26,041 nt of DNA from IMG/VR virus record IMGVR_UViG_3300025098_000248, positions 1 through 26,041 of that record; one strand, given 5' to 3'. The notes beneath the pieces are model-generated. The model was given only the letters and a program-made list of their open reading frames with translations. It was not told the origin of the DNA and made no database searches. The DNA comes from a virus. Each line of letters starts with the position of its first letter. Position 1 is the stretch's first letter. The translations under genes and the position numbers were made by a program. Shown here piece after piece: positions 1 to 17,000 of the stretch.

Positions 1-264
1 ATAGCGCAAGGTTTGCTTTTCGAGCAAAACGACGCAGCAACACGTAATCGATTTATAGCACAAACATCAGCAGTTTTGGCTGACGTTAGAGTTAAACAAG
101 GAATTGAAGATTTCCGCGTAGTTATGGATGAAACAAACAATTCAGCAGAAGATGTAGATAACAATAGACTTAATGGTCGTATTATTGTTGTGCCGACAAG
201 AGCTGTTGAATTTATTGCAATGGACTTCATTATTACTAATAGCGGTGTGGAATTCCCATCTTAA
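1..264 (+). CDS. Tail sheath protein, C-terminal fragment (copy 1, canonical)
   Basis: This is the last 87 residues of a gene whose start lies before the window; the frame is open from base 1 to the TAA at 262-264. The visible part is the conserved C-terminal domain of the T4 gp18 tail-sheath family. It has LLFEQND near the start, the hallmark DETNN motif, and VPTRAVEFIAMDF near the end. In sheath proteins this domain packs against the tail tube and supplies strands exchanged between neighbouring subunits in the contractile lattice. DETNN is intact here but lost in the two downstream paralogs, so this copy is probably the main sheath protein. The next gene follows after 48 bases with its own ribosome binding site. 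Arginine codons include several CGN, as in the tube gene, which suggests high expression. Family assignment is secure; full length is unknown. Confidence 0.88.
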   Translation: MAQGLLFEQNDAATRNRFIAQTSAVLADVRVKQGIEDFRVVMDETNNSAEDVDNNRLNGRIIVVPTRAVEFIAMDFIITNSGVEFPS

Positions 265-312
265 GAATAGTTATTAATAAATTAAAAGAAATTTAATAGG
301 AGTAAATATAAT

Positions 313-3300
313 ATGGCTGGACAAGGCTCAGCGCGAGTTACATTGCGCGAAATAGACTTATCACAAGTAAGAAACCCACAGCAATCGCCTCAAGGTGTTC
401 CAGCTGCTGTTGTTGGTACCGCGAGAAAAGGTCCAGCCTTTGTCCCGCGAACATTTGCCAATATGCAGCAGTTTAACGAAGTCTTTGGTAGCATGCTAGA
501 AGTTGGAAAAGATTCAAATTCAAATCTTCCTGGCCCTCTCGCACTTAATGAATGGATGAAATCTGCACAAGCAGGAACATTTCTTCGTGTTCTAGGTGTT
601 GGTGATGGAACCAAAGCTATTACAGGAACAGATGATGCTTCTTTAGGAAAAGTTCCAGAATCTGGCTTTGTTGTTGGACAAGAATTAGTTCAAGCAAGAA
701 GCGGAAGTAATAGTGCAGGTAAAGTATCACAAAATCCACATGCTACTATAACAAATAGATCTAACGCATCAGCTGCAGCAAAAACTCATTTCTTAGGTTG
801 TTTTATGAAAGATGCTTCAGGTAGTTCTTTTCTACAAGATGCTGGTATTCAAACAGATCTAACTAGAGGTCTCTTAAAACTAAACTTTACAGGTATTCCT
901 ACAAATGGCACTACTCTTACTTTGATTGGAAGAGCAGCTGATTCTACTCAGAAAACTTTTGTTATTACAATTAACACAGCGGATGATCTCGTTGTACACG
1001 GTGACGGTACAATAGCATTGGGTGCACAAGACAATGATGGAGCTAACTTAGAAGCACGTCTAGTAAATGCATTACAAGGTAAAATAGCTGATGGAACTGG
1101 ACATAACTTTGACAACGCTGCACATAATCCTAATTTTTATTTTGAAACATCTCTAGTAGCAGGTGTTATAGAAGTAAGACAAAGAGAAGATGGAGTTTCT
1201 TCTAATACAGTAGCAACATCAACACTAACAGCAGCTACCGATGTTCTTACAATAGATAACGGAACTACAACTATAAAAAATAGTTTAACATCTCAAACTG
1301 TAACGTCAACACTTTCAGGAGCAACTAATTCTTCTTCTGTAGTCACAGTATCAGCTGTACCACAAGCAGATGGATTATGTAGTTTTTCAATAACAGATTC
1401 ACTAGGTATAGAAAAGCATATTAGATTAACTTTAGGAAATGATGATGGAATAACTGTAGATGGTGCATCTCAAGTAAATGGAAAAACTATTGATTTTTAT
1501 ATAGGCGTATTTACTATTCAAAATGATTTTCCTGCTATTGCTGATAAAATTGCTGCTCAGTTGCAGACAAAAGTTGCTGATAATACTTTTACAGGACTTA
1601 CTTTTACAGGTAATAACGATGGAACTTTTAGTATAGCAAACAGTTTAGAAGGTCAAGTTAACTTATTTAATGAAATTCAAGATACAGATAGTGCTATAGC
1701 AGAAACAACAGAAGTTTTAGGCAGTAATGGCTCGCTTTCTACGGTAACATTAACTTTAACGGGTCAACCTGATGTTGATAATGAATTTATTTTAAATACA
1801 GTAGAAGAGACTACTAATGTAGTAACAGATAAAACTTTTATATTTGTAGCAGAAAATGCTCAACCAGGTTCAGTAAATGGTACTGAATCTAATAGTAAAG
1901 TTCAAATTGAGTTAAATGCTAATCTTGATATTCTTTTAGCAAGAATACAAAGTGCAATTGAAGTTAGTGATGTAAAAGACAAATATACAGTTTTAGTAAA
2001 TGCAGCTGATAATACTGTAGAAATTAAAAGAACACAAGCACAAGGTTTTGTTCAAGATAGAGACTTTGTTTTTAAATTAAACAGTAATGTATCTGTTACA
2101 GGAACTGAAAATAAGACCGGTAGATTTGGGCCTCAAACAATTTCTTTTGCAGGCGGCGGTGGAGGTGCTTCACCAATTATTCGTGGTGTTTTAATGATGC
2201 CACAAGGTGTTAAACCTTCTATGCAAGTTAATAACTCTCTAGCAACTTTTAGTAAGTCTACTTCTGATACAAATCTTAGAAATTTAGAGATTCATGGAAA
2301 AACTTTTGGCAGCAATGACGCTAATAACCTTGCAGGTTATCTTGTAGGAGAAGTTGATTCTTCGCAGTCTTTTGATTTACTTCTAAATGGATTTACTAAT
2401 TTAGAAGAATCATCTGTTATTAAATGCTCTTTTGATCCAGATGATGATTCATATTTTGCAAAAGTTTTAAATACAGATCCTACAAAGATTGAAGAAAAAG
2501 GTCACTACTTGTATGCACATTGGGATATTGATTCTAATGTAGCAGTACCATCAAGTGATAATTTACTACATGCAGGAAGTTTACTTTCATCTGGCAACTA
2601 TGCTAATATGATTGGCTTTGTAATGGCAGGAGCTGGAGATGGTGCTGCAGATTTGCCTGACTATGATAGCTTTGAGCAAAGATTCCAAACTGCAAAGACT
2701 CCGTGGATTGTATCTCAATTTACAAGTGTAAGTTCTAATACAGTAGCAAGACCAGCAACAGCAGCTGCAGGTGGTGCTAAAAAGCTATTTAGACTTTATT
2801 CATTAGATGATGGTGAAGTTGGTAATACGCAATTTAGATTGTTAATTAGTGACTTAAGATATAATGGTGCTAATGATTACGGTACGTTTACTCTTTCTTT
2901 AGAGAAGTTTGACTCTGATCCTGTTAGAGGAGAGATTTTAATTTCTTGGAAGAAGGCTGACCTTAATCCTAACAGTCCTAACTTTATTGGACGTTTAATT
3001 GGTGATGAGCATACATATTATGACTTTGATTTAGATTCTGATAAGCAAAGACTCAAGACTAAAGGTTCTTATGCGCTTAAGAACAGCTATGTAAGAATCG
3101 AGCTTTCTGACGAAGTTAAACAAGGACTTATTCCTGTTGATTCTTTGCCAGCTGGTTTCCAAGGACATTCTCATCTAAGAACTTCTGGTATTACTGGTAA
3201 CTTTGTAGAACAGTCTGATTTAAACGAAAAGAGAGTATTTACAGATAGCAGTAATAGTGCACTAACAACTTTAAATAGTGCGCAAGCTTTACCTTTAGAC

Positions 3301-4686
3301 TATGTAAAGAGCATTAGTAGATTAATTGCAACATCAACTGAAGAAGCTGATTCAGATTTGGCTTGGGGTGTTAAGTTATCTGTAAGAGAAAACAAAGATT
3401 CTGATAAAAAAGAATTGGTTGAGCAAGTCTTTAATCATTCTGTTAAATCGTGGACTAAGTTCTTCCCAGAGCTAGGACAGAGTCATGCATTTGAAACTGA
3501 TGGTAATGAAGCGGATAAATTCCAAAACTCTTTCTTCTCTCTTGAAAACATTGAACTAGGAAATGCTTCATCTACTGCAGTTTGGAATGGTTCTAAATAT
3601 GTTAGAAAACCTGCTGCAGCATCAAATAGATTTGTAACAATTTCTCAAGATGCTAAGGGTGGAAACGTTAAGTACTTAAAGTTCCGTTGTTTATTCCAAG
3701 GTGGATTTGATGGTGTCAATATTTTTGATCAAGAAAAGGCAGAGCTAACAAGTGTAGCATCTGTACGTGAAGGTCAAGATGAGGCAGGAACAAAGAAGTT
3801 TACTGGTCCGACAGTCATGGCATATCGAAGAGCAGTTGATGTTTTGGCAGATAAGTCTGCTGCAGAATTCCAACTACTTTCAGTTCCAGGGCAAAGAGCT
3901 TCACAAGTTACTGATTATGCAATTGATGCATGTGAAGATCGATTTGATGCTTTATTAGTAATGGATGTTATAGAGAAAACAGCAGAAACACATCATGTCG
4001 AATCATCTAGCGAAAAACCTCATGTTAGAAATACAATTTCTTCTTTTGAAGGTCGTTCATTGGATACATCATTTGCTGCAGCTTACTTCCCTGATGTTGT
4101 AATTAGAAGACCTTCGGATAGTGCACCGGTTATTATGCCACCTTCAGTTGGTATGATGGGTGTAATGAGTCGAAACGATTCAATTGCTGATCCATGGTTT
4201 GCTCCTGCTGGTTTAAGTCGTGGTCGTTTAGGTGCAATTGATGCGAAAGTTCAAATGAATCGTGATCTTTTAGATGAGCTATATGATGCAGATATTAATC
4301 CAATTTATGTTCCAGCTGGACGTAGTGGAGAGGTTTATGCATTTGGTCAAAAGACTTTATTACAAGATGCATCTGCTTTGGATCGTATTAACGTAAGACG
4401 TTTATTAATTGACATTCGTCGTAAAGTTAAAAAAGTTGGAGAAGAGCTTTTATTTGAGCCGAATAGAGCATCAACACTCACTAAATTCTCTGCACTGGTT
4501 GAGCCTATTATGGCAAACGTGCAACAAAGAAGAGGTGTTGAAAGATATAAGGTTCAAATCGATACAACAACAACTACTCAAAACGACGTCGAAAACAATA
4601 CCATTCGTGGTAAGATTTACTTGCAACCTACAAAGAGCGTAGAATTTATTTCTTTAGACTTTGTTGTGGCAAATAACATACAATAA
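313..4686 (+). CDS. Giant tail sheath-family protein (copy 2) with large modular insert
   Basis: A 1457-aa protein, about twice the length of T4 gp18 (659 aa). Residues 1-105 match the sheath N-terminus, with GVPAAVVGTARKGPAFVP and then FLRVLGVG. Residues about 775-910 and 1125-1457 are further sheath regions: TAKTPWIV, LDDGEVGNTQFR, GGFDGVNIFD, and the C-terminal domain with LLFEPN and KSVEFISLDF. In between, residues about 186-612 form a Thr/Ser/Asn-rich insert of what look like three related beta modules, ending at a five-Gly hinge (614-618). The last 76 alignable residues share 31 identities with copy 1 (hand count, no gaps), but DETNN has become a Thr run. The start ATG at 313 follows TAGGAG. 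The protein probably joins or decorates the sheath around the tube; whether it replaces, mixes with or caps copy 1 cannot be told. Family is sure, exact role is not. Confidence 0.85.
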   Translation: MAGQGSARVTLREIDLSQVRNPQQSPQGVPAAVVGTARKGPAFVPRTFANMQQFNEVFGSMLEVGKDSNSNLPGPLALNEWMKSAQAGTFLRVLGVGDGTKAITGTDDASLGKVPESGFVVGQELVQARSGSNSAGKVSQNPHATITNRSNASAAAKTHFLGCFMKDASGSSFLQDAGIQTDLTRGLLKLNFTGIPTNGTTLTLIGRAADSTQKTFVITINTADDLVVHGDGTIALGAQDNDGANLEARLVNALQGKIADGTGHNFDNAAHNPNFYFETSLVAGVIEVRQREDGVSSNTVATSTLTAATDVLTIDNGTTTIKNSLTSQTVTSTLSGATNSSSVVTVSAVPQADGLCSFSITDSLGIEKHIRLTLGNDDGITVDGASQVNGKTIDFYIGVFTIQNDFPAIADKIAAQLQTKVADNTFTGLTFTGNNDGTFSIANSLEGQVNLFNEIQDTDSAIAETTEVLGSNGSLSTVTLTLTGQPDVDNEFILNTVEETTNVVTDKTFIFVAENAQPGSVNGTESNSKVQIELNANLDILLARIQSAIEVSDVKDKYTVLVNAADNTVEIKRTQAQGFVQDRDFVFKLNSNVSVTGTENKTGRFGPQTISFAGGGGGASPIIRGVLMMPQGVKPSMQVNNSLATFSKSTSDTNLRNLEIHGKTFGSNDANNLAGYLVGEVDSSQSFDLLLNGFTNLEESSVIKCSFDPDDDSYFAKVLNTDPTKIEEKGHYLYAHWDIDSNVAVPSSDNLLHAGSLLSSGNYANMIGFVMAGAGDGAADLPDYDSFEQRFQTAKTPWIVSQFTSVSSNTVARPATAAAGGAKKLFRLYSLDDGEVGNTQFRLLISDLRYNGANDYGTFTLSLEKFDSDPVRGEILISWKKADLNPNSPNFIGRLIGDEHTYYDFDLDSDKQRLKTKGSYALKNSYVRIELSDEVKQGLIPVDSLPAGFQGHSHLRTSGITGNFVEQSDLNEKRVFTDSSNSALTTLNSAQALPLDYVKSISRLIATSTEEADSDLAWGVKLSVRENKDSDKKELVEQVFNHSVKSWTKFFPELGQSHAFETDGNEADKFQNSFFSLENIELGNASSTAVWNGSKYVRKPAAASNRFVTISQDAKGGNVKYLKFRCLFQGGFDGVNIFDQEKAELTSVASVREGQDEAGTKKFTGPTVMAYRRAVDVLADKSAAEFQLLSVPGQRASQVTDYAIDACEDRFDALLVMDVIEKTAETHHVESSSEKPHVRNTISSFEGRSLDTSFAAAYFPDVVIRRPSDSAPVIMPPSVGMMGVMSRNDSIADPWFAPAGLSRGRLGAIDAKVQMNRDLLDELYDADINPIYVPAGRSGEVYAFGQKTLLQDASALDRINVRRLLIDIRRKVKKVGEELLFEPNRASTLTKFSALVEPIMANVQQRRGVERYKVQIDTTTTTQNDVENNTIRGKIYLQPTKSVEFISLDFVVANNIQ
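868..2148 (+). other. Three repeat-like beta modules inserted in sheath copy 2
   Basis: Residues about 186-325, 340-475 and 476-612 of the giant sheath protein share one pattern. Each has a beta-rich TLTL/SFSI-type opening, an aliphatic-aromatic strand, a helix-like segment with an A/L-rich core (for example ADKIAAQLQTKV), and a closing strand before an N/D-G turn. This resembles small beta modules repeated in structural proteins of many large phages. The insert lacks recognisable sheath motifs, and the third sheath paralog has no counterpart. A glycine run at 2152-2166 marks its downstream edge. Arginines here are mostly AGA, unlike the CGT-rich C-terminal sheath domain. Boundaries are by eye, and repeat homology is a pattern judgement rather than an alignment score. 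Confidence 0.5.
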
Positions 4687-4731
4687 GAATTTTAATGATA
4701 TATATAAACAAAGAATTTAGGAGTTTTAAAA

Positions 4732-5220
4732 ATGGCTGAGACACTATCAGTAACGGAGATGATACCTAATAAGTTTGAACCAAAGAGAAAAAATCGTTGG
4801 GTCTTTGCTATTGAGGGTATCGATGCTTTTCTTATGAAGACCGCAAGTCGTCCTTCATATTCTACAAACGAGACACAAGTACCTTTTATTAACAGCACAC
4901 GTTATCTTGCTGGTAAGACAACTTTTGAGACTATGTCTGTAACATTACATGATCCAATTGCACCTTCAGGTTCACAACAAGTTATGGAGTGGATCCGGAC
5001 ACATTATGAATCTGTAAGTGGTCGTGCTGGATACGCAGATTTCTACAAAAGAGATTGCCAGCTTAAATTATTAGATCCTGTTGGAACTGTTGTTGAGTTA
5101 TGGGACATTAAAGGTGCTTTCTTAACAAGTGCAAACTTTGGTGATCTTTCTTATGACGGTGATGACATGACTGAGATTTCTCTAACTATTCGTTTTGATA
5201 ACTGCGTATTACAATACTAA
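4732..5220 (+). CDS. Tail tube protein (T4 gp19-like)
   Basis: A 162-aa protein, the usual size for the T4 gp19 tail-tube family (T4: 163 aa). Family landmarks are the N-terminal NRWVFAIEGIDAFLMKTASRP, the strand around TTFETMSVTLHDP, the helix QQVMEWIRTHYE, and the C-terminal LWDIKGAFLTSANFGDLSY followed by TEISLTIRFD. The protein would stack as hexameric rings to form the inner tube through which DNA passes. AGGAG lies upstream of the ATG. The gene sits immediately after the two sheath genes, as in T4 (18-19), and is followed by a strong terminator, so it closes the sheath/tube operon. Arginine codons are mostly CGN (6 of 8), unlike the AGA-dominated genes downstream, in keeping with a very abundant product. 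Confidence in the family is high. Confidence 0.93.
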   Translation: MAETLSVTEMIPNKFEPKRKNRWVFAIEGIDAFLMKTASRPSYSTNETQVPFINSTRYLAGKTTFETMSVTLHDPIAPSGSQQVMEWIRTHYESVSGRAGYADFYKRDCQLKLLDPVGTVVELWDIKGAFLTSANFGDLSYDGDDMTEISLTIRFDNCVLQY

Positions 5221-5256
5221 GATCAGTTTCATAACTAAGAAACGTTGCTCATAATA

Positions 5257-5290
5257 AAGAGCATTCTGTTTATTCAGGGTGCTCTTTTTT
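5257..5290 (+). terminator. Intrinsic terminator after the sheath/tube operon
   Basis: AAGAGCA (5257-5263) pairs with TGCTCTT (5280-5286), and a short inner CTG/CAG stem extends the hairpin. It is followed directly by a T run to 5290. It begins 36 bases after the tube stop codon. A second TGCTC (5246-5250) just upstream can also pair with GAGCA (5259-5263), giving a competing hairpin. Confidence 0.82.
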
Positions 5291-5308
5291 GCTGTCTGTA
5301 AAAAGATT

Positions 5309-5337
5309 TTAACTTGCATGTATATTTTATCAATAAT
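5309..5337 (+). promoter_or_regulatory. Possible sigma70-type promoter for the second tail operon
   Basis: TTAACT (5309-5314), a 17-base spacer and AATAAT (5332-5337) match the -35/-10 consensus at 4/6 and 5/6. The position is sensible: between the terminator and the third sheath-family gene, in a 190-base gap that otherwise holds nothing recognisable. The sequence is very AT-rich, so chance matches are common. Large phages can also use their own polymerases or sigma factors. Confidence 0.3.
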
Positions 5338-5410
5338 TAATAGTTATCAAAAACAACAAAATTCTGGTAACTCATAATTAATTACGTATTTAAACGATTG
5401 CAGGAATAAA

Positions 5411-8400
5411 ATGCTAGACACAAATTTTATCGATATAAGTCTTGGGAACGCAAAAGAAGATGACTCACAAGTTGTTGAACAAAGCTTGATTGCAACAACA
5501 GCAAACATTATAGGCACAGCTTATAAAGGTCCTGCTTTTGTTCCACAAAAAATATTTGCCGGTCAAACTATAGGTGATGCCCAAGTCTATAATACATTAG
5601 AAAACACACTAGGCACAGCAAGACAGAATCAATATGCTCACCTTTTCGACAACTATACTTGTCATGCTGATAGTATGGCTTATGATGCTGCTTCTTTATG
5701 GTTGAACAATGGAGGCATTTATTCTTCTTTTACAAGAGTCTTAGGCATAGGCACAGGTACTATAGATTCAAATACGGGCAAAATGTCAGGCAGTGGCTTT
5801 AATGCTGCAAATGATATTTCTAGCGGCACTCTTACACATCAAAGAGGTCCTAATCTAAATGCTGTTGCAAACGGCAAGCCTGGAAACGTTACGTTTTTAC
5901 TGAAAACTTTTGAAGAAAAAGATCTTTTAACATTTGACTACATAGATGAATTAGGAATAGATACATCAGGTAATAAGAAGCCTCATTTTATAACAGACGT
6001 TGTGTTATTTGCAAGCGGAGTTCTTCCAAGTCTAACAACTGGGTCAGTAGGGAACATTACATACTCTACAGGCTCTTCTGATTACGACACTCAGGTAAAA
6101 TCAATAGCATCAATTAGCAGTAACAATAATAACATTTTAATGTTAGGTCATAATCCTTATATTGAAAATTCAGGTTCATCAAATTTTCTAAAAACAAAAG
6201 TCTCACCCTATATAAAAGATTCTTTTGGAAATTCTAGCAATCAAATTTTAAAGCAAACAAATTACTTAGATAATAATATCAACTATTTCGCAGATAAGTT
6301 TTTAAATAGAGGACATTTAAATTACGCATCTTTTTCTTTCGCAGGTATGAGTAAAGAAGTTAAAGCAAGTCATGACTGCAAGATTTTAACAACAAAGCCT
6401 TTTAGCGAAATAAGTAACAATACAAACTTACCTGATTTTAATTCTTTTGAGAGTGAATTTACAACAGCAAAAACTCCATGGATAACAGCACAACCTTTTA
6501 ATAGAGAAGGGATTGCAAACAATAGAACAAACATACACGAAAAAGTACAGAATTTGTTCCGTTTTTGGTCTTTAGACGATGGTGAAATAGGTAATAGATT
6601 TAGAATAAAAATCAATCCTAAGCTAAGAGGCGATACTTCTGTAACAAGAAATGCATCTCCAGATGAGTATGCAACCTTTGATATTTATGTTTTCGAATAT
6701 GATCCAAGAATTAATAGTTTTGAGCAGCTTGAGTACTATGAAAACGTTAATTTAGATCCTGAAAGTAAAGATTATATTGGACGTCAAATTGGAACAGTCT
6801 ATAGCTATTATGACTTTACTTCCAAAAAAGTTATAGAAAAAGGATTATACGAAAACAAAAGTAAAGTTTTAAGAGTAGAAATAGATAATGTAATAGAATA
6901 TAAAGTCATTCAAAATCAACATGAATATATACCTTCAGGTTTTAGATCTTACCCACATATAAGTCTGAAAAAGGAATGCTTTTCTGGTTGGTATGATGAA
7001 AGTGAAACATTGTTTGATATAAACGGTGTATATCATTTGCCTCCAATGTTTGCTTTAAATTATTATACTGATACAGTCTTAGGCGAAGAAAGCAACGTTA
7101 ATAACAATTGGGGTGTTATATTTACACAACCTGTAATAAATTCAAACAAACAAACTAGATATGTTGATTCTAATGATGGGAATGAAACAAATTTAATTTC
7201 ACCTCATTTTTACTATACAAAGTATTTCTTAAATGGCTTATCTAATATTCAAAAAGACGTATGGGTAGAACAAGACAATTATCTTAACTCTTTTTTCCAT
7301 TTAGAAAAAATAAGAATTAAAACAGATGATGCTGGTAATTTTACTTTAACATATAATGAGTCTAATGCAATGCAGACATTTTACAAACATTCAGGTGCTA
7401 CACTTGCTAATAATTATGAATATTTAAATTTGAATGACAACAAAGTTTGGAAAGTAAACAATAGAGAAATAATAGCTAAATTGAAAAATAAACTTTCTTT
7501 TGATTTCTTTACATATGGTGGGTTTGATGGTGTAGACATAAGAGATTCAGACAAAAGATTTTTAAGAAATGACGCAGTTATAAGAGAGTTAAATGATGCA
7601 AATGAAACGAAGAGTACATATACTTCTTATGACAAAGCAATAGATATTGCAATGGACGAGGCAAATTGTGCTGGAGACATATTTTTAATGCCTGGGATTA
7701 AAGAAATTCCTTTAATAGATAAAGTCTTGAAGAAATGTGAAGAAGATAGAAGACATTTCTTTATTGCAGATATTGGCGGTGCTTCTTCTAACAGAGTAGT
7801 TTCTTTTGATAAAATTGAAATTGATAACAGTGGGGTTGTTTCTGCAGGTGATGCTGTTAAAAAATCAAGAGGGATTATGGGAAATTTCTTTTTTGTTAGT
7901 AATATTTTAAGTAGCTATGATTTAAACAAAAAAGAATTAGAAGACATAGATCAAAGATTTAGCTTAGGAACTAATTCAATAACAGGACAAGAGTTTTACA
8001 AATATTCAGATGTTTTAAAAAAGCAGCACGATTATGCAGTATCTACATGGAAAGGTTTAGACTTGAGAAGTAGATATATAATGCCTACTTTTGGAGACTT
8101 AATAGCTTCAAATGCTGATACTGATTTTCAAAAACAGGTAACTTCTGATAGTTTTGTTTTAGGGAAACTTGCTCAAGTAATTAGTCCTAGACAGAGTTTA
8201 TCACTTATAGATGCTTATCCTCAAATGTCAAGTGATTTAGGAGAAATAAATTATAATTTAATAAATGAAGAAGATTTATTAGAGAACAATTTAAACTTTG
8301 ATATACTTGCTAAAGATTTGAGAAATGCTGCAGTAAATATTTTATATAAGCCTAGGGACGGAAATATAAAATTATTATCAGAGAGTACATCTTACGAAAA

Positions 8401-8803
8401 CAGAAAATCAATATTTCAATTGCAGAGTATAGTAAGAACTTTACAAGAAATTAAAAAAAGACTGAGAATAGATATTTTTACTAATGACAGTTTAGTAAAT
8501 GGAGGAATATTGTTTTCTCAAAATGCTAGTTTTCAAAACATATATGCAAGATTAAAAATTCAGATAGACAATTTAATGCAGAGTTTTTTAGATGCAGGAT
8601 ATATACAAGATTATAGAGTAATGATTCCTGAAAGTACAGATCCTAAAACTGTATTAGATATGCAGAATTATATTATAAGAGGTCATATTGTTTTACAATT
8701 TGGTGACTCTGATATAATAAATTTATCGATCGACGAAGTGTTGAGCAACTTAAGTTTGTTGTCAGACACGAACCAGGATAGTGTATTAGTATTAAACGTT
8801 TAA
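5411..8803 (+). CDS. Divergent tail sheath-family protein (copy 3)
   Basis: A 1130-aa protein recognisable as a sheath paralog by motifs shared with copy 2. These are GTAYKGPAFVP (35-45), FTRVLGIGTG (107-116), TAKTPWITAQ (352-361), SLDDGEIGNRFR (387-398), DYIGRQIGTVYSYYDF (454-469) and GGFDGVDI (703-710). The C-terminus (about 1040-1110) still follows the sheath layout (ARLKIQIDN, DYRVMIPEST, IRGHIVLQF), but DETNN and the strong VEFI/DF ending are lost. It lacks the large modular insert of copy 2, having only about 230 residues between the N-terminal motif and the TAKTPW region. AGGAA precedes the ATG. Arginine codons are mostly AGA, suggesting lower expression than copies 1 and 2. It could be a minor sheath component, a first or last sheath ring, or a baseplate-contacting variant. 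Family is fairly sure, role unknown. Confidence 0.75.
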   Translation: MLDTNFIDISLGNAKEDDSQVVEQSLIATTANIIGTAYKGPAFVPQKIFAGQTIGDAQVYNTLENTLGTARQNQYAHLFDNYTCHADSMAYDAASLWLNNGGIYSSFTRVLGIGTGTIDSNTGKMSGSGFNAANDISSGTLTHQRGPNLNAVANGKPGNVTFLLKTFEEKDLLTFDYIDELGIDTSGNKKPHFITDVVLFASGVLPSLTTGSVGNITYSTGSSDYDTQVKSIASISSNNNNILMLGHNPYIENSGSSNFLKTKVSPYIKDSFGNSSNQILKQTNYLDNNINYFADKFLNRGHLNYASFSFAGMSKEVKASHDCKILTTKPFSEISNNTNLPDFNSFESEFTTAKTPWITAQPFNREGIANNRTNIHEKVQNLFRFWSLDDGEIGNRFRIKINPKLRGDTSVTRNASPDEYATFDIYVFEYDPRINSFEQLEYYENVNLDPESKDYIGRQIGTVYSYYDFTSKKVIEKGLYENKSKVLRVEIDNVIEYKVIQNQHEYIPSGFRSYPHISLKKECFSGWYDESETLFDINGVYHLPPMFALNYYTDTVLGEESNVNNNWGVIFTQPVINSNKQTRYVDSNDGNETNLISPHFYYTKYFLNGLSNIQKDVWVEQDNYLNSFFHLEKIRIKTDDAGNFTLTYNESNAMQTFYKHSGATLANNYEYLNLNDNKVWKVNNREIIAKLKNKLSFDFFTYGGFDGVDIRDSDKRFLRNDAVIRELNDANETKSTYTSYDKAIDIAMDEANCAGDIFLMPGIKEIPLIDKVLKKCEEDRRHFFIADIGGASSNRVVSFDKIEIDNSGVVSAGDAVKKSRGIMGNFFFVSNILSSYDLNKKELEDIDQRFSLGTNSITGQEFYKYSDVLKKQHDYAVSTWKGLDLRSRYIMPTFGDLIASNADTDFQKQVTSDSFVLGKLAQVISPRQSLSLIDAYPQMSSDLGEINYNLINEEDLLENNLNFDILAKDLRNAAVNILYKPRDGNIKLLSESTSYENRKSIFQLQSIVRTLQEIKKRLRIDIFTNDSLVNGGILFSQNASFQNIYARLKIQIDNLMQSFLDAGYIQDYRVMIPESTDPKTVLDMQNYIIRGHIVLQFGDSDIINLSIDEVLSNLSLLSDTNQDSVLVLNV

Positions 8804-8816
8804 GGAGAAATAATTA

Positions 8817-9665
8817 ATGAGTAATTCTTTAGATAAGCCTATTGATCATACGCAAGTTAATAGCGACGGGCCAATTAAAGTTTCAAATGTAATGAAGGAT
8901 GATTTCGGTTTTGAAATCCCGCAAGAGAGTGTCCCTTTACCTTCACGAGGGGTAATTTATACACAAGATGGGGCTCTTTACGGGCAAGAAACAATTGATA
9001 TTCGTCCAATGACTGCGAGAGAAGAAGATATTTTAACTTCTCGTGCTTACATTAAAAGCGGAACTGTTTTAACAAAACTTTTAAAATCATGTATTGTTGA
9101 TAAAAATATCAAACCTGATGATTTAATTAGTGGTGATAGAAATGCTTTGCTTGTATCACTTCGAATCACAGGATATGGTGCTGATTATGATGTTGAAGTA
9201 GATTGTCCAGAGTGTGGTACAAAAAGTAAGCAAGCATTTGATTTGTCACAGTTAAAGATTAAGAGACTAGAAGTAGATCCTGTTGTCATGGGTGATAATT
9301 TATTTGAAGTTCAATTGCCAATTACAAAGAAGACTGTAAGAGTTAAGTTTTTAACTGGTCATGATGAGCGTGAAATGATGATAACAAACGAAAGAAAGAA
9401 AAAGAGTGGAATGAAAGTTGAAACTGCAATCACAGACAGACTTTCTCGTTCAATTGTTTCAGTAGATGGAATTACTGATCGAAATAAGCTTAATTTCTTT
9501 GTCAAGAATATTCCTGCACGAGACTCTTTATCTCTTCGGAGATTTCTTGACAAGCATGAGCCAGGTATTATTATGAAGTCTTGGATGAATTGTCCTCACT
9601 GTCATGAGCAAAGTGAGGTTGGCCTTCCAATGGGCGCTTCGTTTTTTTGGCCTGACACCGAATAA
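8817..9665 (+). CDS. T4 gp26-like baseplate/tail assembly chaperone with zinc-ribbon cysteines
   Basis: A 282-aa protein of the T4 gp26-like baseplate family. Landmarks are VPLPSRGVIYTQDG (39-52), DIRPMTAREEDIL (61-73), GDRNALLVSLRITGYG (106-121), FVKNIPARDSLSLRRFLDKH (228-247), and two Cys pairs, C130-x2-C133 and C259-x2-C262, that probably bind one zinc. In T4, gp26 acts in baseplate-hub assembly; a role as chaperone for the tape measure is inferred from its place just before the tape-measure genes. AAGGAG lies nine bases before the ATG. The gene ends with codons TTT TTT TGG (FFW), PDTE and TAA. The seven-T run at 9642-9648 lies where a +1-frame ORF overlaps, so a longer fused product is likely. 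Family confidence is high; the frameshift is inferred. Confidence 0.87.
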   Translation: MSNSLDKPIDHTQVNSDGPIKVSNVMKDDFGFEIPQESVPLPSRGVIYTQDGALYGQETIDIRPMTAREEDILTSRAYIKSGTVLTKLLKSCIVDKNIKPDDLISGDRNALLVSLRITGYGADYDVEVDCPECGTKSKQAFDLSQLKIKRLEVDPVVMGDNLFEVQLPITKKTVRVKFLTGHDEREMMITNERKKKSGMKVETAITDRLSRSIVSVDGITDRNKLNFFVKNIPARDSLSLRRFLDKHEPGIIMKSWMNCPHCHEQSEVGLPMGASFFWPDTE

Positions 9666-9876
9666 TAAAGATTTATATCTTGAACAAATCTACATCTTAA
9701 TGTACCACTTAGGCTTTACTTATCAAGATGCATATAAATGCCCGGTTTGGCAACGCTTTTGGTTTATAAATAGATTTAAAAAAGAACTTGAAGATGCTAA
9801 ACAGCAGAATCAGATGGTACAATCACAATCAAAAAGAAACACAAGTGGTAGTAGAATATTTAGTAAATCATTTTAA
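9604..9876 (+). CDS. Overlapping +1-frame ORF, probably the frameshifted C-terminal extension of the gp26-like chaperone
   Basis: This 90-codon ORF starts inside the gp26-like gene, overlaps it by 62 bases, and continues about 210 bases past its stop. The first ATG (9604) has no ribosome binding site and lies in the Cys-pair region of the other frame, so independent initiation is unlikely. A +1 (or -2) shift at the seven-T run joins FF of the gp26-like protein to GLTPNNKDLYLEQIYILMYH. The extension then has LGFTYQDAYKCPVWQRFWFI and a charged Lys/Gln-rich tail. The layout resembles the G/GT tail-assembly-chaperone frameshift of other tailed phages, and also the T4 order, where gene 51 follows gene 26. 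Homology to gp51 cannot be shown by eye. The ORF is real by context and length; how it is translated is inference. Confidence 0.68.
   Translation: MSKVRLAFQWALRFFGLTPNNKDLYLEQIYILMYHLGFTYQDAYKCPVWQRFWFINRFKKELEDAKQQNQMVQSQSKRNTSGSRIFSKSF
9642..9648 (+). promoter_or_regulatory. Candidate programmed ribosomal frameshift site (seven T)
   Basis: Seven consecutive T are read as TTT TTT T|GG in the gp26-like frame, 15 bases before its stop. Skipping one T (+1), or slipping back two, enters the downstream ORF at GGC (9649). Phe tRNA can re-pair on the T run in either direction. No strong downstream stem-loop or pseudoknot was seen. Confidence 0.55.
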
Positions 9877-9917
9877 AAGATAATTATACTATACATATAA
9901 TTTAAAAAGGATTTAAA

Positions 9918-10169
9918 ATGATGACACAAAAAGAAAAACTTCTTCATAATATTGCTGCAAGATATATAATGAGTGAAGATGTAGATATTGAGTTATCTGG
10001 AAGACCTGCTGAAATGGATTGTCTTGTTTCTCTATTAGAAGTATCTAAGCGTCTTAAAATTCAATTAGATGACAATGCTTCATTTAGTGCAATTAACAAG
10101 ACACTTAAAGAAAAAAAAGACCTTACACAAAAGTTTGAAAATCTTTCAGGTATTACTTGGAGGCTCTAA
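9918..10169 (+). CDS. Small hypothetical protein between chaperone and tape-measure genes
   Basis: An 83-aa protein that I do not recognise. It is mostly charged and predicted helical, with no Cys pair, signal peptide or membrane segment. AAAAAGGATT precedes tandem ATG codons (9918 and 9921); the first is taken as the start. The stop is three bases before the first tape-measure start, and that gene's GGAGG site (about 10158) lies inside the end of this one, so the two are probably translationally coupled. Its position between the gp26-like chaperone pair and the tape measure suggests a tail-assembly or hub role (T4 has gp27/gp28 near here), but no sequence motif supports a specific function. 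A 41-base gap precedes it, with no clear promoter. Confidence 0.72.
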   Translation: MMTQKEKLLHNIAARYIMSEDVDIELSGRPAEMDCLVSLLEVSKRLKIQLDDNASFSAINKTLKEKKDLTQKFENLSGITWRL

Positions 10170-10172
10170 TAA

Positions 10173-13100
10173 ATGGAAAATACAGTTCAGATACAACTAG
10201 ATATTTCTAAAGGCCTTTTGCAAGCTTTAGATTCTATGGTAAGCGCATATGAGTCTATGAACATGACAGCAAGCCAGACAAGTGGAATGCAAAAAATGAT
10301 GCAATCTATGCAGCAGTCAGATGATTTAATGCAAACTACTACGTCTAAAGCTGGTAACATGTCAAAAGAAATATCTCAGTCAGTTTCTGAAAGTTTTTCT
10401 AAAAACTTTGAAAAACAATCAAAAGATGCTGTTTCTGCTATAAATAAAAGCTCAGATAACAATCAAAAAAGCACAAACAAACTAAATGCTTCAGCACTAA
10501 AAGATCAAAAAATATTTTCTGCTATTAAAGAAAATTCAGATAGTCTTAACAAAAGCATGAAAAGTAATAAAAGTGCAACAAAAGCTTTAGATAATGCTAT
10601 TAATAAAATGACAGACGTCGAAGATTCTCTTTACATTGCAACAAAAGGTATCGGATTTTTAGCTTCAGCAGTTGAAAAATTTAATACAATTAAAGATGGA
10701 TTTATGACGCTTGGCTTTAGCCTTTTTTATGACGTGCCTAAACTACTTTTCAATCTTCTAAAGTCAGTAGCTTCTATTGTAGGTTCAATACTAAGTTCTG
10801 CAACTAAATTTTTTATGATGACGATGTCTATTCCTTTTACGATAGCAAAATTTGCTGCAAATATAGGTAATACAATAAGGAAAGATCTTGTAGAGGTTAT
10901 ACAAGCTGCAGGTGAAGAAGCAAAAGAAAGCTTTGACTTAACATCACATATTGGTAAAGGTGCTGCTAAAATGACTCAAATGTCAAAGGGTTTACTAAAG
11001 CAGTTCAATACACCTAAGTCAAGGCTTTCAAAACTTTTTGGTATGGGAGCAGCAGGTATTGCTTCTTTTCAAAAAGAAACTTTTAGTTTAGTTGCAGGAA
11101 TGGGACATTATTCTGAGGTTTTTGGTGCTACAATTATGAAAGATTTAAAAGTAGCACAAGCTTTAATTGAGGCTCAAAGAGCAATGGGGTTAAATGCTCA
11201 GCAAATGGCTTTTTATGCACAAGAAGCTTACAATAGCGGCAAAGATCCAACATCAGTTTTAATTGATATAGCTACAAATCTTAAAAAGACAGCTAAAGGT
11301 AGTAATCTAGACTTTAAAGCCCTATCTAAAGAATTTCATGTCTTAAGAACTAATATTGTTGATTTTGGTAATTTATCATCAAATGAAATTATGGGATTAA
11401 CTGTTAAGTTAAGAAAAATGGGCGTTAAAACAGATGATGCTGTAAATGTATTTAAAAAGTTTAGTTCTCTTGAAGAAGCATCAAAAGCATCTGCAATGTT
11501 ATTTCAGTCGTTTGAAATGAATGTAGATGCTTTTGATTTACTAACTTCAAGAGACCCAGGGGAAATGCTGACACAGTTTAGAGAGGCTATGTTACAAACA
11601 GGAAAATCTTTCAAAGACTTAAACAGGCACGAAAAATCTTTAATGCAAAACATTACAGGTATCAGCGAAAATGGACTTAATTCTTTGATGAATTTTATGT
11701 CTTACGGCTTAACTTATGATGAAGCAAGAAAAAGAATGGAAGAGCAAGACCCAACAAAACAACAAACTGAAATGATGAAGGGCTTAACTTCTACTATAAA
11801 AATGGTTCAAAAAACTATGACTTTTGATTCACCCTTTACAGCTTTCTTTAGAGGTTTAACAAACAATGCTGCAAACCAAAAAGACTTGAAAAATAGTGTC
11901 ATAAGTCTAAGTAAACTATATGAAAGCTTTTATCATTTAGGTTTTAGCATGAATCTAGATGAAATAAAGTCATTTTTAGGACCTGTTACAGTTGTGCTTA
12001 CTAAGATTAGAGGTACACTGACATCTCAGAAATTTATGAGTTTACTTAAAACAACAACTAAGACTGTAGGCGGTGTGTTAGGCGATCTAGGTAATGATTT
12101 GCAAAATGATGTATCAAAGGAATATTATAAGTTTGGCTTAAAAGTTGAAAAAATGACAGAGATTGCTGGTGAAAGTGCTGAAGAAAACCTTAAAAAAGCA
12201 GAAACAGCAGCATTACAATCTTTACTTGGAACAACAAAAACAGCAAACAAAGATCTAATTAAAAACTTAAAAGAAAAAGGAATTTTAAAAGCTGGTAAAA
12301 AAGGCATGTTTAAGATCATGGATGGTCTTTCTTTGACAAAATTTTTAAGCAAGATGCAAACTATAAGCAACATGTATGATCCTAATAGTCCAATACAAAA
12401 AGAAATTGCTAAAATAAGAGAAAAAGTCGAGGAGTCTTATGATAAAAGTATTGAGTCTTTTGAAGGAAACTATATAGAAAACCTTAAAAAAGCAAACTAT
12501 CAAGCAAATGAAAGAAGTACAATAAAAGGCAGAATTGATAATCTTTATGATCAAATGAATGAACTTATAAAAGAAGGAACGCCAATGTTCAATACAATTA
12601 AAGGCATTGGCGGGAAAATCATGGGATCTATAATTAGAGGAATGATGTACGGATTTGCTGCAGGATTAAAACTGCTTTCAGGAAACTTAGAGATGGCTGT
12701 AGAATCGTTAGGAATTAATCCACAAGAAAAAGCTCTTGAAGAAGCTGCTAAAAAAGCAGGCAAGTCTGTAGATAAGCTTTCAGCTTTTGATCTTATGGGA
12801 ATATCAACTGATGATAAAAACTACATAAGTGATGAGTTAGGAAAAGAGTCTAGTAAAATGGTTCTAAATCTACCTACATTTATGAGCATGGCAGGTTCAT
12901 TCTTAAACGACTTATCAGAAGTTTTTATTCAATTTGCGGGAGGAATAGTTGGTATTATTGGTGATATGACATACAAGTATTATAAAGCATCAGGCGATAT
13001 TACAAAAGCTGCAATGATAGGAAGTGGCTTTGATCCAGAAAAAGCAGTTGCTTTAAGCGCGTTAAACAGTATTTATAAAAAGAAAGACATTGTAGGACAA

Positions 13101-14069
13101 CTCTCATCTATTAAAGGTAGTCTAGCTGAAGCTAGAGGAATAAATGAAGATGATTATGATAAAAAAGTAAGAAAAGATGACCCAGCAAAAAATAAAGTTT
13201 TATTAAGGATTTTAAAAAAATATAAAGAAAATTTTGATTCAAGAACAAGTGCTTTTAAGTTAATAGACAGTTCACAAAATATCCTTAAGGATAAAAATGT
13301 AACGAATAACAAACTTTCAAATGCAATATATCATATTATCGCAGGTGCAGAAGAGATGAATAGCTATGTACCTGCAAGTTTATTTAAAAAATATAAAGGT
13401 AACGAAGAAGCTATAAAAATATTACTAAAAAAAGACAAAAACAACGTAAACATGAAAATTGCATCTGAATCTGTGCTTAATAATCTTAAAAAAGAAACAA
13501 CTTCAAAATTCTGGATTCGCAACTTAAAAAGTTTTGGTGGCAAAGACAGAGCTAATTCAATTATTGATAATATTAACTCACATAGAGAAAGTAAAAAAGA
13601 TACAGAGCCACGCTTAATTCAAGAAATTGAAGAAAAGCTTAAAGAACTAAAGACGTCTAAGACACCTGTAGACAAAAAAGTTGCAGATTATTACGGAAAA
13701 GGAAAAGGTGCAGTATTAGCTATCGGAAATCAAAGATTACATTTGCATGATCATGATGCTGTATATGCTGCTAAAAAAGGAGGGTTTTTAAATAAAATAT
13801 ATATTGAAGTTTTTGAAACATATAATTTGTTTACGCAAGATCTTTTCTCTGTATTTAATCAACGCATTGAAGCATCAAATAAAGATCTAACAGAAGCAAA
13901 ATCAGTTATCTCTAAGTTAAAAAACAATGACATTAAAAAAGAAGATTATAACAATGAAGCTTCAGCAGAAGAAATGTTTGATATATTTAATCTATGTTTA
14001 GATGTTATCAACGAAAGTTTAAACAAAAAATCTGTATCTAGAAACGTTAAAGCTCAAATTACAGCATAA
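10173..14069 (+). CDS. Tape-measure-like tail protein 1
   Basis: A 1298-aa, helix-rich protein. Residues 1-150 are Gln/Ser/Met-rich and coiled-coil-like. Residues about 155-235 hold hydrophobic stretches (GFLASAV, LLFNLLKSVASIVGSILSSA), typical of tape-measure proteins that later help DNA enter the cell. The core (about 236-570) matches the next gene: RKDLVEVIQ, VFKKFSSLEEA, TGKSFKDLNR, GLTYDEARKRM, FDSPFTAFFRGLTNN. Near the C-terminus, LHLHDHDAVYAAKKGG (about 1188-1203) resembles a motif seen near the end of large-phage tape measures, recalled from memory. As an extended helix the chain would span roughly 195 nm (0.15 nm per residue), compared with 590 residues for T4 gp29. It would sit inside the tail tube and set tail length. 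Function rests on length, composition and gene order. Confidence 0.72.
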   Translation: MENTVQIQLDISKGLLQALDSMVSAYESMNMTASQTSGMQKMMQSMQQSDDLMQTTTSKAGNMSKEISQSVSESFSKNFEKQSKDAVSAINKSSDNNQKSTNKLNASALKDQKIFSAIKENSDSLNKSMKSNKSATKALDNAINKMTDVEDSLYIATKGIGFLASAVEKFNTIKDGFMTLGFSLFYDVPKLLFNLLKSVASIVGSILSSATKFFMMTMSIPFTIAKFAANIGNTIRKDLVEVIQAAGEEAKESFDLTSHIGKGAAKMTQMSKGLLKQFNTPKSRLSKLFGMGAAGIASFQKETFSLVAGMGHYSEVFGATIMKDLKVAQALIEAQRAMGLNAQQMAFYAQEAYNSGKDPTSVLIDIATNLKKTAKGSNLDFKALSKEFHVLRTNIVDFGNLSSNEIMGLTVKLRKMGVKTDDAVNVFKKFSSLEEASKASAMLFQSFEMNVDAFDLLTSRDPGEMLTQFREAMLQTGKSFKDLNRHEKSLMQNITGISENGLNSLMNFMSYGLTYDEARKRMEEQDPTKQQTEMMKGLTSTIKMVQKTMTFDSPFTAFFRGLTNNAANQKDLKNSVISLSKLYESFYHLGFSMNLDEIKSFLGPVTVVLTKIRGTLTSQKFMSLLKTTTKTVGGVLGDLGNDLQNDVSKEYYKFGLKVEKMTEIAGESAEENLKKAETAALQSLLGTTKTANKDLIKNLKEKGILKAGKKGMFKIMDGLSLTKFLSKMQTISNMYDPNSPIQKEIAKIREKVEESYDKSIESFEGNYIENLKKANYQANERSTIKGRIDNLYDQMNELIKEGTPMFNTIKGIGGKIMGSIIRGMMYGFAAGLKLLSGNLEMAVESLGINPQEKALEEAAKKAGKSVDKLSAFDLMGISTDDKNYISDELGKESSKMVLNLPTFMSMAGSFLNDLSEVFIQFAGGIVGIIGDMTYKYYKASGDITKAAMIGSGFDPEKAVALSALNSIYKKKDIVGQLSSIKGSLAEARGINEDDYDKKVRKDDPAKNKVLLRILKKYKENFDSRTSAFKLIDSSQNILKDKNVTNNKLSNAIYHIIAGAEEMNSYVPASLFKKYKGNEEAIKILLKKDKNNVNMKIASESVLNNLKKETTSKFWIRNLKSFGGKDRANSIIDNINSHRESKKDTEPRLIQEIEEKLKELKTSKTPVDKKVADYYGKGKGAVLAIGNQRLHLHDHDAVYAAKKGGFLNKIYIEVFETYNLFTQDLFSVFNQRIEASNKDLTEAKSVISKLKNNDIKKEDYNNEASAEEMFDIFNLCLDVINESLNKKSVSRNVKAQITA

Positions 14070-14079
14070 GGAGATATAA

Positions 14080-17000
14080 ATGGCAGATACTAACGATCCA
14101 AATCAAGCGTCACAAGAATCAGAAGGAAATGCTGGATCTGGACAAATTAATATTGCCAGAGAGTTAAATTCTGTTTTAGAGCAAGTTTCTGCTAGACTAG
14201 AAAAAATACAGAAGCTTACGCAAACACAAGCAGACTTTATGACTCAAATGACTCAAAGTTTTACAGATATGCAAGAAAACATGGAATCAATGACAGGCAA
14301 TGCACAAGAAATGTCCACATCATTTCAAGATGCTGCTGAGTCTGTAATGGATCAATTTAGCAAAGAAAAGCTTGAAACAATAGATAACAGTGTTAAAAAA
14401 ATATCTGATGCCTATAAAGATGCTTCTGATGTTCAAAAAGAAACACTTCAAAATGCAAGTAAAACTGTGTCAAGCATGGGTAGTGTTACAAAATCTATAA
14501 GTGAAGACATGAAAAGAGATACTAATGCACTTAATAAGGCATTAATGAGAAACAGCAAAAGTTTTAATAATTTTGGTAACAACTCAAAAAACATAAACGA
14601 GCAAGTAAAAGAGTTTGTTGGGTCAATAGTCGAATTAAAAAATCAAATTGTCGGGATTGTTTTTTCATTAGGACAGAAAATTAAGTCTGCAATGTCTATG
14701 GGATTTACTTTAGTTAAAGGAGTAGCTTCATTTGTAGGTAGTATGATAGGTGCAGCAGCAAAATTTGGAAAATTTGCACTAACTGTCCCATTTACAATTA
14801 CAAAAGCAGCTGTAAATATAGGAAACACGTTAAGAAGAGACATTGTAGAAGTTATTCAAACAGCACAAGAAGCCTTAAAAGATAAATTTGATATGGATTC
14901 AACTATCGGTGAAGGTATAAAGTCGATGACAAACAAAGGAAAAGGAATGCTTCTTTCATTTCAAAATCCTTCTTCAGAGCTTGTTAAATTGTTTGGCTTC
15001 GGAGCAAACGGTATTGCTTCCATGATTGGATTTTTAGGTGAGAATATAGAAGCAATGGGACATTTTTCTGAAATGTTTGGACGAAGCTTAGGTAATAACT
15101 TGCCAAAATTTAAAGCATTTTCTAGAATGGTAAAGGGTTTTGGTTTTTCATCTGAAGATGTTGCTTACCTTGCACAAGATGCTGCTGTGAATCTTAAAGA
15201 TATAAATGTAAGAATGGCAGAACTAGGTGTAACATTAACAAGTACTGCCAAAGAATTTGGTTTAGACAGGAAAAGATTGTCTAAAAACTTTATGGTTCTT
15301 AGAAAAGACATAACTCAATTTGGACATTTGTCAGATGAAGAAATAGGAAGGACAACTGCAAGACTTACACAAATGAAAGTTAAGCTTGAAGATGCGTCTG
15401 CTGTATTTAAAAAGTTTAGTACGTTTGAAGATGCAGCAAATTCTGTTGCAATGCTATCCCAGACTTTTGGAATGAATCTAGATGCAATGGATATAATACA
15501 GGCAAAAAAACCTGAAGATGTTATTGAAATGTTTAGAACTTCTATGTTAGAAACTGGGAGATCTTTTGAGGATTTAAATAGATTTGAGAAAGATCTAATG
15601 GCACAACACACAGGCATGTCTGCTGAAAGTCTGAAAGGGCTTATGCATTATAGAGATATTGGTTTGACTTATGAGCAAGCAAGAAAAAGAATGGAGTCAG
15701 AAAATCCAACATCAAAACAAATGAAAGCGTTAAAAGGTCTTAACAGCGCAATTAAAGAGGTTCAAAAAGTTATGAATTTTGATTCTCCATTTCAAGCATT
15801 TGTTAAAGGTTTAACTAACAATATAGCACTTTCAGGTGACTTAAAAGGAACTTTGACTAGTTTAAGTAGTGGATATCAATCTATTTATCAATACGCATTG
15901 AAAATGGATCCTAGCACTTGGAGTGGCTTAATTAAACCTATAAAGCTTATTATCGATATTATGAGCAATATTTTAAAAAGTGATGCATTTAAAGGAGGTT
16001 TAGTTTCAGCAATGTCAACAATGGCAGATTTTGCTGCAGAAATGTTTGGTGCAACAAAAGGTGATGTTATTCTTTCAAAACTAGAAACTAATGTATCTAT
16101 AGCAATGCAAAAAGGCGGAAAGTTTTACGGCAAAAAAGGAAAACAAAGAATAGAAGCATTTAAAAATTTATTACTCGATGGACTAGCAAAAGAAGCAAGT
16201 CTTAATAAATTAGTTGATATGGAAGCATTGAAAAAAATAAAAGACCCAAGAAAACTTATTCAAGAGATAAACAAGTATAAACAAAGTGTTAATCCTAAAA
16301 ATCAAGCTAGAATCGATATATTTGATGACTATTTAGAAAGATCGACAAACGAAATTTTTAAGAAGTTTGACAAAGATGATGAAAAATCAGAGGAAAAGAA
16401 GAAAGGCAAGAAATTATCAGCTTCTACAAAAACAAAAGCTAATCGTCTCTCTGAAGGTCTTCTTGATATCATGAAGGCAAATAAAGATAATATGGGCAAA
16501 CTTGCAACATTAAGTCTAAGAATTGCAGGGGCTGTTATTAAGTCTGCTGCAATAGGATTTACAGCACTTCTAAAAGTTATTAATAACGGTATGAGCGAGT
16601 TAGACAAGTCAGGTGCTTTAAATAGCGATACTAACATGATTGAAGACTTTTTGCATTTTAAGCCAGGTGAATTTGCTGAACTTGGAAGTTCAATTGGGGA
16701 TGCATTTAAAGAGTTTTGGGAGAAAAAACAAAATGCCTTTAGCATAACAGGCTGGATTATTGATGGTATATCTGATGCTTTTAGTTTTGTCATTGGAACT
16801 TTTGTAGATACTATAAAAAGTGGAATTAACGAAATACTAGGGAAAGAAGTATTTGAAAAGTCTAGTTCTTCTATATTAAGAGAATCAAGGAAGAAAAAAT
16901 TTGAAGATTCTAAAGGTACAATGAGTTACGGAACTAAAGCCGTAGAAAGCATGGCAGATAAAGCAAAAAACACAAATGTTAGTGATGCTATAAGCGGTGA

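Follow-up and report, generated by a model that had tools for sequence, protein, structure and literature searches.

The window analysed here is the whole of IMG/VR record IMGVR_UViG_3300025098_000248 (26,041 bases) and carries a partial contractile-tail operon with every gene on the + strand. It opens within the C-terminal 87 residues of a first tail sheath protein, S1 (positions 1–264, open at the contig start), followed by a second tail sheath protein of 1457 residues, S2 (313–4686), a 162-residue tail tube protein of the gp19 family (4732–5220; PHROG 4542 tail tube, 3.1e-29), and a third, diverged sheath-family protein of 1130 residues, S3 (5411–8803). A terminator-like hairpin, with a 13-bp stem and a T run, lies between the tube gene and S3 at 5256–5287. 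Downstream of S3 are a gp26/T4_baseplate-family protein (8817–9665; PF12322, 1.5e-21; PHROG 150), the tape-measure-like proteins tmpA (1298 residues; 10173–14069) and tmpB (1387 residues; 14080–18243), and two further large proteins. Only one tube gene was found in the window. The coordinates and lengths that a preliminary description had assigned to the S1 end, S2, the tube and S3 are correct.

The tape-measure-like genes are named by position; they are tandem paralogues with 32% identity, and neither has a protein-family match. The tandem pair also occurs in three other loci (L014, L107, and L123), and two-sheath relatives mostly have a single tape-measure gene. Positions 21541–25914 encode another protein of 1457 residues, which has no match among phage records or PHROGs and whose relatives are found at the corresponding position in several two-sheath loci. 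The operon is best read as coming from a large, uncultured phage with a contractile tail and a sheath built from paralogues.

By sequence comparison, S1 and S2 belong to the gp18/PHROG 23 sheath family. The truncated end of S1 matches the C terminus of S2 with 39% identity (E = 7e-21), and the full-length protein is visible in the sister contig L004 (3411–6536), where S2 is identical to the window copy over the shared 1024 residues. Complete S1 has 1041 residues, so that copy 1 is not the small gp18-like form for which it had been taken. It matches the PHROG 23 tail sheath at 2.9e-58, and the S1 profile matches gp18-type sheath chains in the PDB with E = 2.6e-40. S2 matches the PHROG 23 sheath (4.7e-40), PF17482 (above cut-off), and the T4 gp18 chain (1.9e-22). 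The preliminary description gave the lengths of copies 2 and 3 correctly as far larger than gp18; the size itself is not unusual, since known sheath proteins of the 900–1100 residue range include those of S-TIM5 (1137 residues) and Atu_ph07 (1086 residues). Its statement that only copy 1 of the window keeps the sequence DETNN is also true, and DETNN is uninformative as a sheath marker because the exact form is carried by just 4 of 86 S1 relatives. Among the relatives, S1 of L010 (4745–8167) has a short insert resembling a 'VVG..Y.I...G.TDFTTIGA...GTGTGA' repeat, which is frequent in structural proteins of marine phages, and S2 of L071 (2942–6449) is split into two overlapping open frames of 791 and 424 residues through a frameshift, an intron or an assembly error.

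Searched on its own against PHROGs, Pfam and the PDB sequences, S3 finds no match, and an 11-row profile did no better. It is related to S2 in a direct BLAST comparison (E = 1e-38) and in profile-profile comparisons with S2 (E = 7e-68) and S1 (4e-35). Whether the shared middle domain alone drives this match was tested by comparing the N- and C-terminal parts of S3 separately, which gave P values of 1.2e-21 and 7.5e-13, with off-register controls at 0.47–0.91. A first AlphaFold2 model from an S3-only alignment of 11 rows was poor (pLDDT 44) and was set aside. With 83 relatives, the model reached a pLDDT of 83.7 and a pTM of 0.89; this alignment also held S1 and S2 relatives and leans toward their fold, and the profile comparisons constitute separate evidence. 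The best structural match of the model is a gp18-type sheath (VIA-align Z = 24.7 over 442 residues), and the best 50 PDB matches are all contractile tails or injection systems in which the matched chains are, going by their titles, sheath proteins. Profiles and model together point to a complete sheath fold in S3, N- and C-terminal domains included. Profile and structure searches had been proposed as a check on the larger copies, and they came out in favour of sheath proteins, for S2 through the sequence matches to PHROG 23 and gp18 and for S3 through profiles and model. Sequence comparison, structure, and gene order all support the proposal of three sheath-family genes around a single tube gene.

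To follow these genes among relatives, we scanned with tube and S2 alignments and surveyed the open reading frames of ~170 loci. A three-sheath state, S1-S2-tube-S3-gp26, is found in ~30 loci, all viral contigs, and a two-sheath state, S1-S2-tube-gp26, in ~80; the order S1-S2-tube-(S3)-gp26 is kept in ~110 loci. A one-sheath state is found in L075–L104 and in the isolates Mel-JY01 and immuto. Wherever the upstream DNA is visible (94 of 94 loci), S2 is immediately preceded by S1; some of these contigs are near-duplicates, so that the independent cases are fewer. Searches across entire records counted exactly two sheath genes where the record is 242 or 257 kb long and exactly three where it spans 115–133 kb; these records therefore hold no further copies elsewhere. 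In L158 (3922–7062) and L168 (5134–6783) a different third sheath directly follows S2, apparently a parallel, independent third copy. The only match in a cellular genome, L172 (PBIO01000013.1), is a contig that was assigned to a Halobacteriovorax MAG; it carries the two-sheath tail operon and may be a host hint or a mis-binned virus.

The fast divergence of S3, whose relatives share 26–56% identity with the window copy, is what one might expect if the extra sheath copies were functionless, either decaying duplicates or an assembly artefact. We consider this extremely improbable, since S3 frames of ~1,000–1,200 residues are kept across ~30 contigs from many samples, S3 is monophyletic, and its fold and gene order are conserved; the independent contigs contradict an artefact.

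The origin of the three genes was examined with an IQ-TREE phylogeny of 42 sequences, with which a FastTree of 98 rows agrees. The S1 clade (100/100), the S3 clade (100/100), and a clade uniting S2 and S3 (100/99) are recovered, with the one-sheath phages outside. These values point to a branching of S3 from the S2 side, later than a single S1/S2 duplication. S2 on its own is weakly supported (55/78), and the tree is accordingly compatible with S3 branching either before or after the split between the two- and three-sheath lineages. The nearest outgroup carries a single sheath gene. Dozens of related viruses show that duplication enlarged the sheath set in steps, first to a pair of genes and then to three.

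Textbook phages have a single sheath gene. Two sheath proteins are established in Pseudomonas phage PaBG and have been noted for some other phages (PMC7412058, PMC9230969); in PaBG, gp76 and gp213 are both present in virions and were explained by gene duplication (PMC7412058). The present lineage, of which no isolate was found, resembles PaBG in having two paralogous sheath genes in one large phage; S1 and S2 occur together in every locus that could be checked. It differs in that the PaBG genes, encoding ~530 residues, are unlinked (at 46.8 kb and 165 kb), whereas S1 and S2 adjoin and encode ~1,000–1,450 residues; PaBG has two tube-like genes beside gp76 in place of the single tube gene of the window, and no third sheath gene has been described for it. 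In our tree gp76 and gp213 group together as a separate clade (100/100), which indicates a duplication independent of S1/S2. The earlier suggestion that multiple sheath genes may already be known in jumbo phages therefore holds for two genes, as in PaBG, with the qualification that the PaBG pair is a separate duplication.

Three paralogous sheath proteins within one particle are known from the injection systems Afp and PVC (Afp2–4, Pvc2–4; PMC9230969), and the clade of the window likewise has three sheath paralogues. The Afp and PVC genes are bacterial, adjacent, and encode ~350–450 residues each, whereas the window lineage has the tube gene between S2 and S3 in a phage tail operon setting, and its sheaths are far closer to gp18 (E ~1e-40) than to Afp3 (6e-5). 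The uncultured huge phage LR756508.1 (484 kb) has two sheath genes of 824 residues near a tube gene related to that of the window; one, LRb, groups with the single-sheath phages and the other, LRa, is a long branch, so there is no clear S1/S2 pair, and S3 is absent. Microcystis phage Mel-JY01 and Flavobacterium phage immuto carry the same sheath lineage in the order sheath-tube-gp26-tape measure, and the Mel-JY01 sheath shares the extra middle domain; unlike the window, both isolates have a single sheath gene. We found no three-sheath phage in the literature, coverage of which was incomplete for subscription papers, and within that coverage an obligate phage sheath pair with a third, diverged paralogue was not found described, two-component (PaBG) and three-component (Afp/PVC) sheaths being known.

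S2 contains a hypervariable insert at approximately residues 171–625 (823–2187). L005 has a tube protein identical to that of the window and matches it at 89–100% identity over most of the S2 core that begins at residue 800, whereas the compared part of the insert (S2 residues 500–600) shows 22–34% identity. Insert types are common to distant relatives, giving a mosaic pattern, and S2 of L012 has 1005 residues and no insert. The alignments indicate that the insert is swapped between very close relatives, and it is predicted to be surface-exposed. Self-comparison revealed no tandem repeats in it, and it has no PHROGs match to a known domain.

The three paralogues differ in their core motifs. 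The motif WxAPAG, near the C terminus, is present in 86 of 86 S1 and 124 of 126 S2 sequences and GQKT in 79 of 86 and 121 of 126, respectively, and both are absent from all 18 S3 sequences. In addition, the C-terminal arm of S3 has changed from LDF(V/I) to an LDE-type sequence. Lacking WxAPAG, S3 is referred to here as a diverged sheath paralogue and not as a canonical sheath. Composition separates the proteins in the same way: S1 and S2 are rich in Ala and Gly and metabolically cheap, and in comparisons paired within loci S3 is costlier than S2 in 22 of 22 cases (p = 5e-7) and than S1 in 15 of 15 (p = 6e-5), and is likewise richer in FYMINK residues than S2 (22/22) and S1 (15/15). The cost of S3 is at or above the level of the tape-measure and gp26 proteins. 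Such a composition would fit a protein made in few copies, although as a proxy for abundance it is indirect; the bias could instead stem from drift in a gene that evolves fast.

The intergenic regions also bear on expression. The hairpin downstream of the tube gene is the strongest terminator-like site within positions 1–10300, and similar hairpins with changed stem bases occur at the same place in L017, L018, L019, L020, and L107. Across the surveyed loci, terminator-like hairpins were counted in 10 of 31 tube-S3 gaps, 56 of 88 tube-gp26 gaps, 2 of 97 S1-S2 gaps, and 0 of 16 S3-gp26 gaps, counts in which gap lengths differ and longer gaps are favoured. S1 and S2 are separated by ~41 nt, and S3 and gp26 by ~16 nt (13 nt in the window). 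Judging by the hairpin distribution, S1, S2, and the tube look like one unit of high output, and S3 seems to belong to another with gp26 and the tape measure. The gap between tube and gp26 that S3 occupies contains putative zinc-finger/homing-endonuclease-like reading frames in L050 (1306–2223) and L070 (10608–11483).

S1 and S2 both retain the full core motifs, and each could polymerise alone. They might accordingly be alternative sheaths, used at different times or in different particle types with one per tail, and the variable insert would be in keeping with S2 as an optional, differently decorated form. We regard this as quite unlikely, since invariable co-retention, close spacing, rarity of terminators between the two genes, and similar composition all suggest joint production. 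A three-component sheath, with S3 as a third main-body subunit throughout, is unlikely as well: S3 has a complete sheath fold with N- and C-terminal domains, but it has lost WxAPAG and GQKT, its C-terminal arm is changed, its composition is costlier, its gene sits in the gp26/tape-measure unit, and many relatives manage without it.

The reading toward which we lean is that S1 and S2 form the sheath body around a single-protein tube and that S3 forms one or more low-copy special rings, probably at the baseplate end; the copy number, virion position, and mechanics given for the three proteins are what we infer from the genes. S1 and S2 would both be full, contraction-competent subunits that jointly build the sheath body, in an alternating or mixed arrangement around the tube or in separate zones. 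S3, a degenerate paralogue, would be made in lower amount with the gp26, tape-measure, and baseplate genes and would form one or a few rings at the sheath end, most likely the baseplate end, much as the extra sheath proteins of Afp and PVC form special rings at the sheath end. Of the ideas in the preliminary description, that of a mixed sheath suits S1 and S2, and that of special rings or a baseplate-proximal collar suits S3, as judged from the gene sequences. In phage phiKp24, each sheath subunit binds subunits of the neighbouring ring through extensions at its N and C termini (PMC9700779); with its arm and core altered, S3 would be best placed where its neighbour is not an ordinary sheath ring.

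The altered arm and the lost core motif would suit any terminal position. S3 might thus cap or collar the sheath on its neck side, toward the head, or it might act during assembly and be missing from the finished tail. We consider this possible, if rather unlikely, as the S3 gene sits with gp26 and the tape measure and apart from the upstream set beside S1; gene position is what favours the baseplate end. Replacement of the gp25 initiator by S3 is disfavoured. Relatives keep a gp25-type sheath initiator gene elsewhere, in two three-sheath records as a gp25-like gene below the family cut-off, so that S3 would be an addition and not a substitute.

Taking S1 and S2 as the sheath body and S3 as a ring at the sheath end, a bolder version, which we put forward tentatively and which falls short of probable, is that a widespread lineage of large phages combines two obligate, non-interchangeable subunits, one with a swappable outward domain, with an S3 ring that lacks the contraction-core motif and so serves as a stationary anchor or as a trigger. 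The swappable S2 domain suggests that surface variation involves the sheath wall itself and not the fibres alone. The usual view of a contractile tail is of a machine with one sheath and one tube, and the number of sheath types that such a tail can use has barely been explored. The natural series of one-, two-, and three-sheath loci with a single gene order would make it possible to trace and test how a uniform sheath became a zoned or mixed one.
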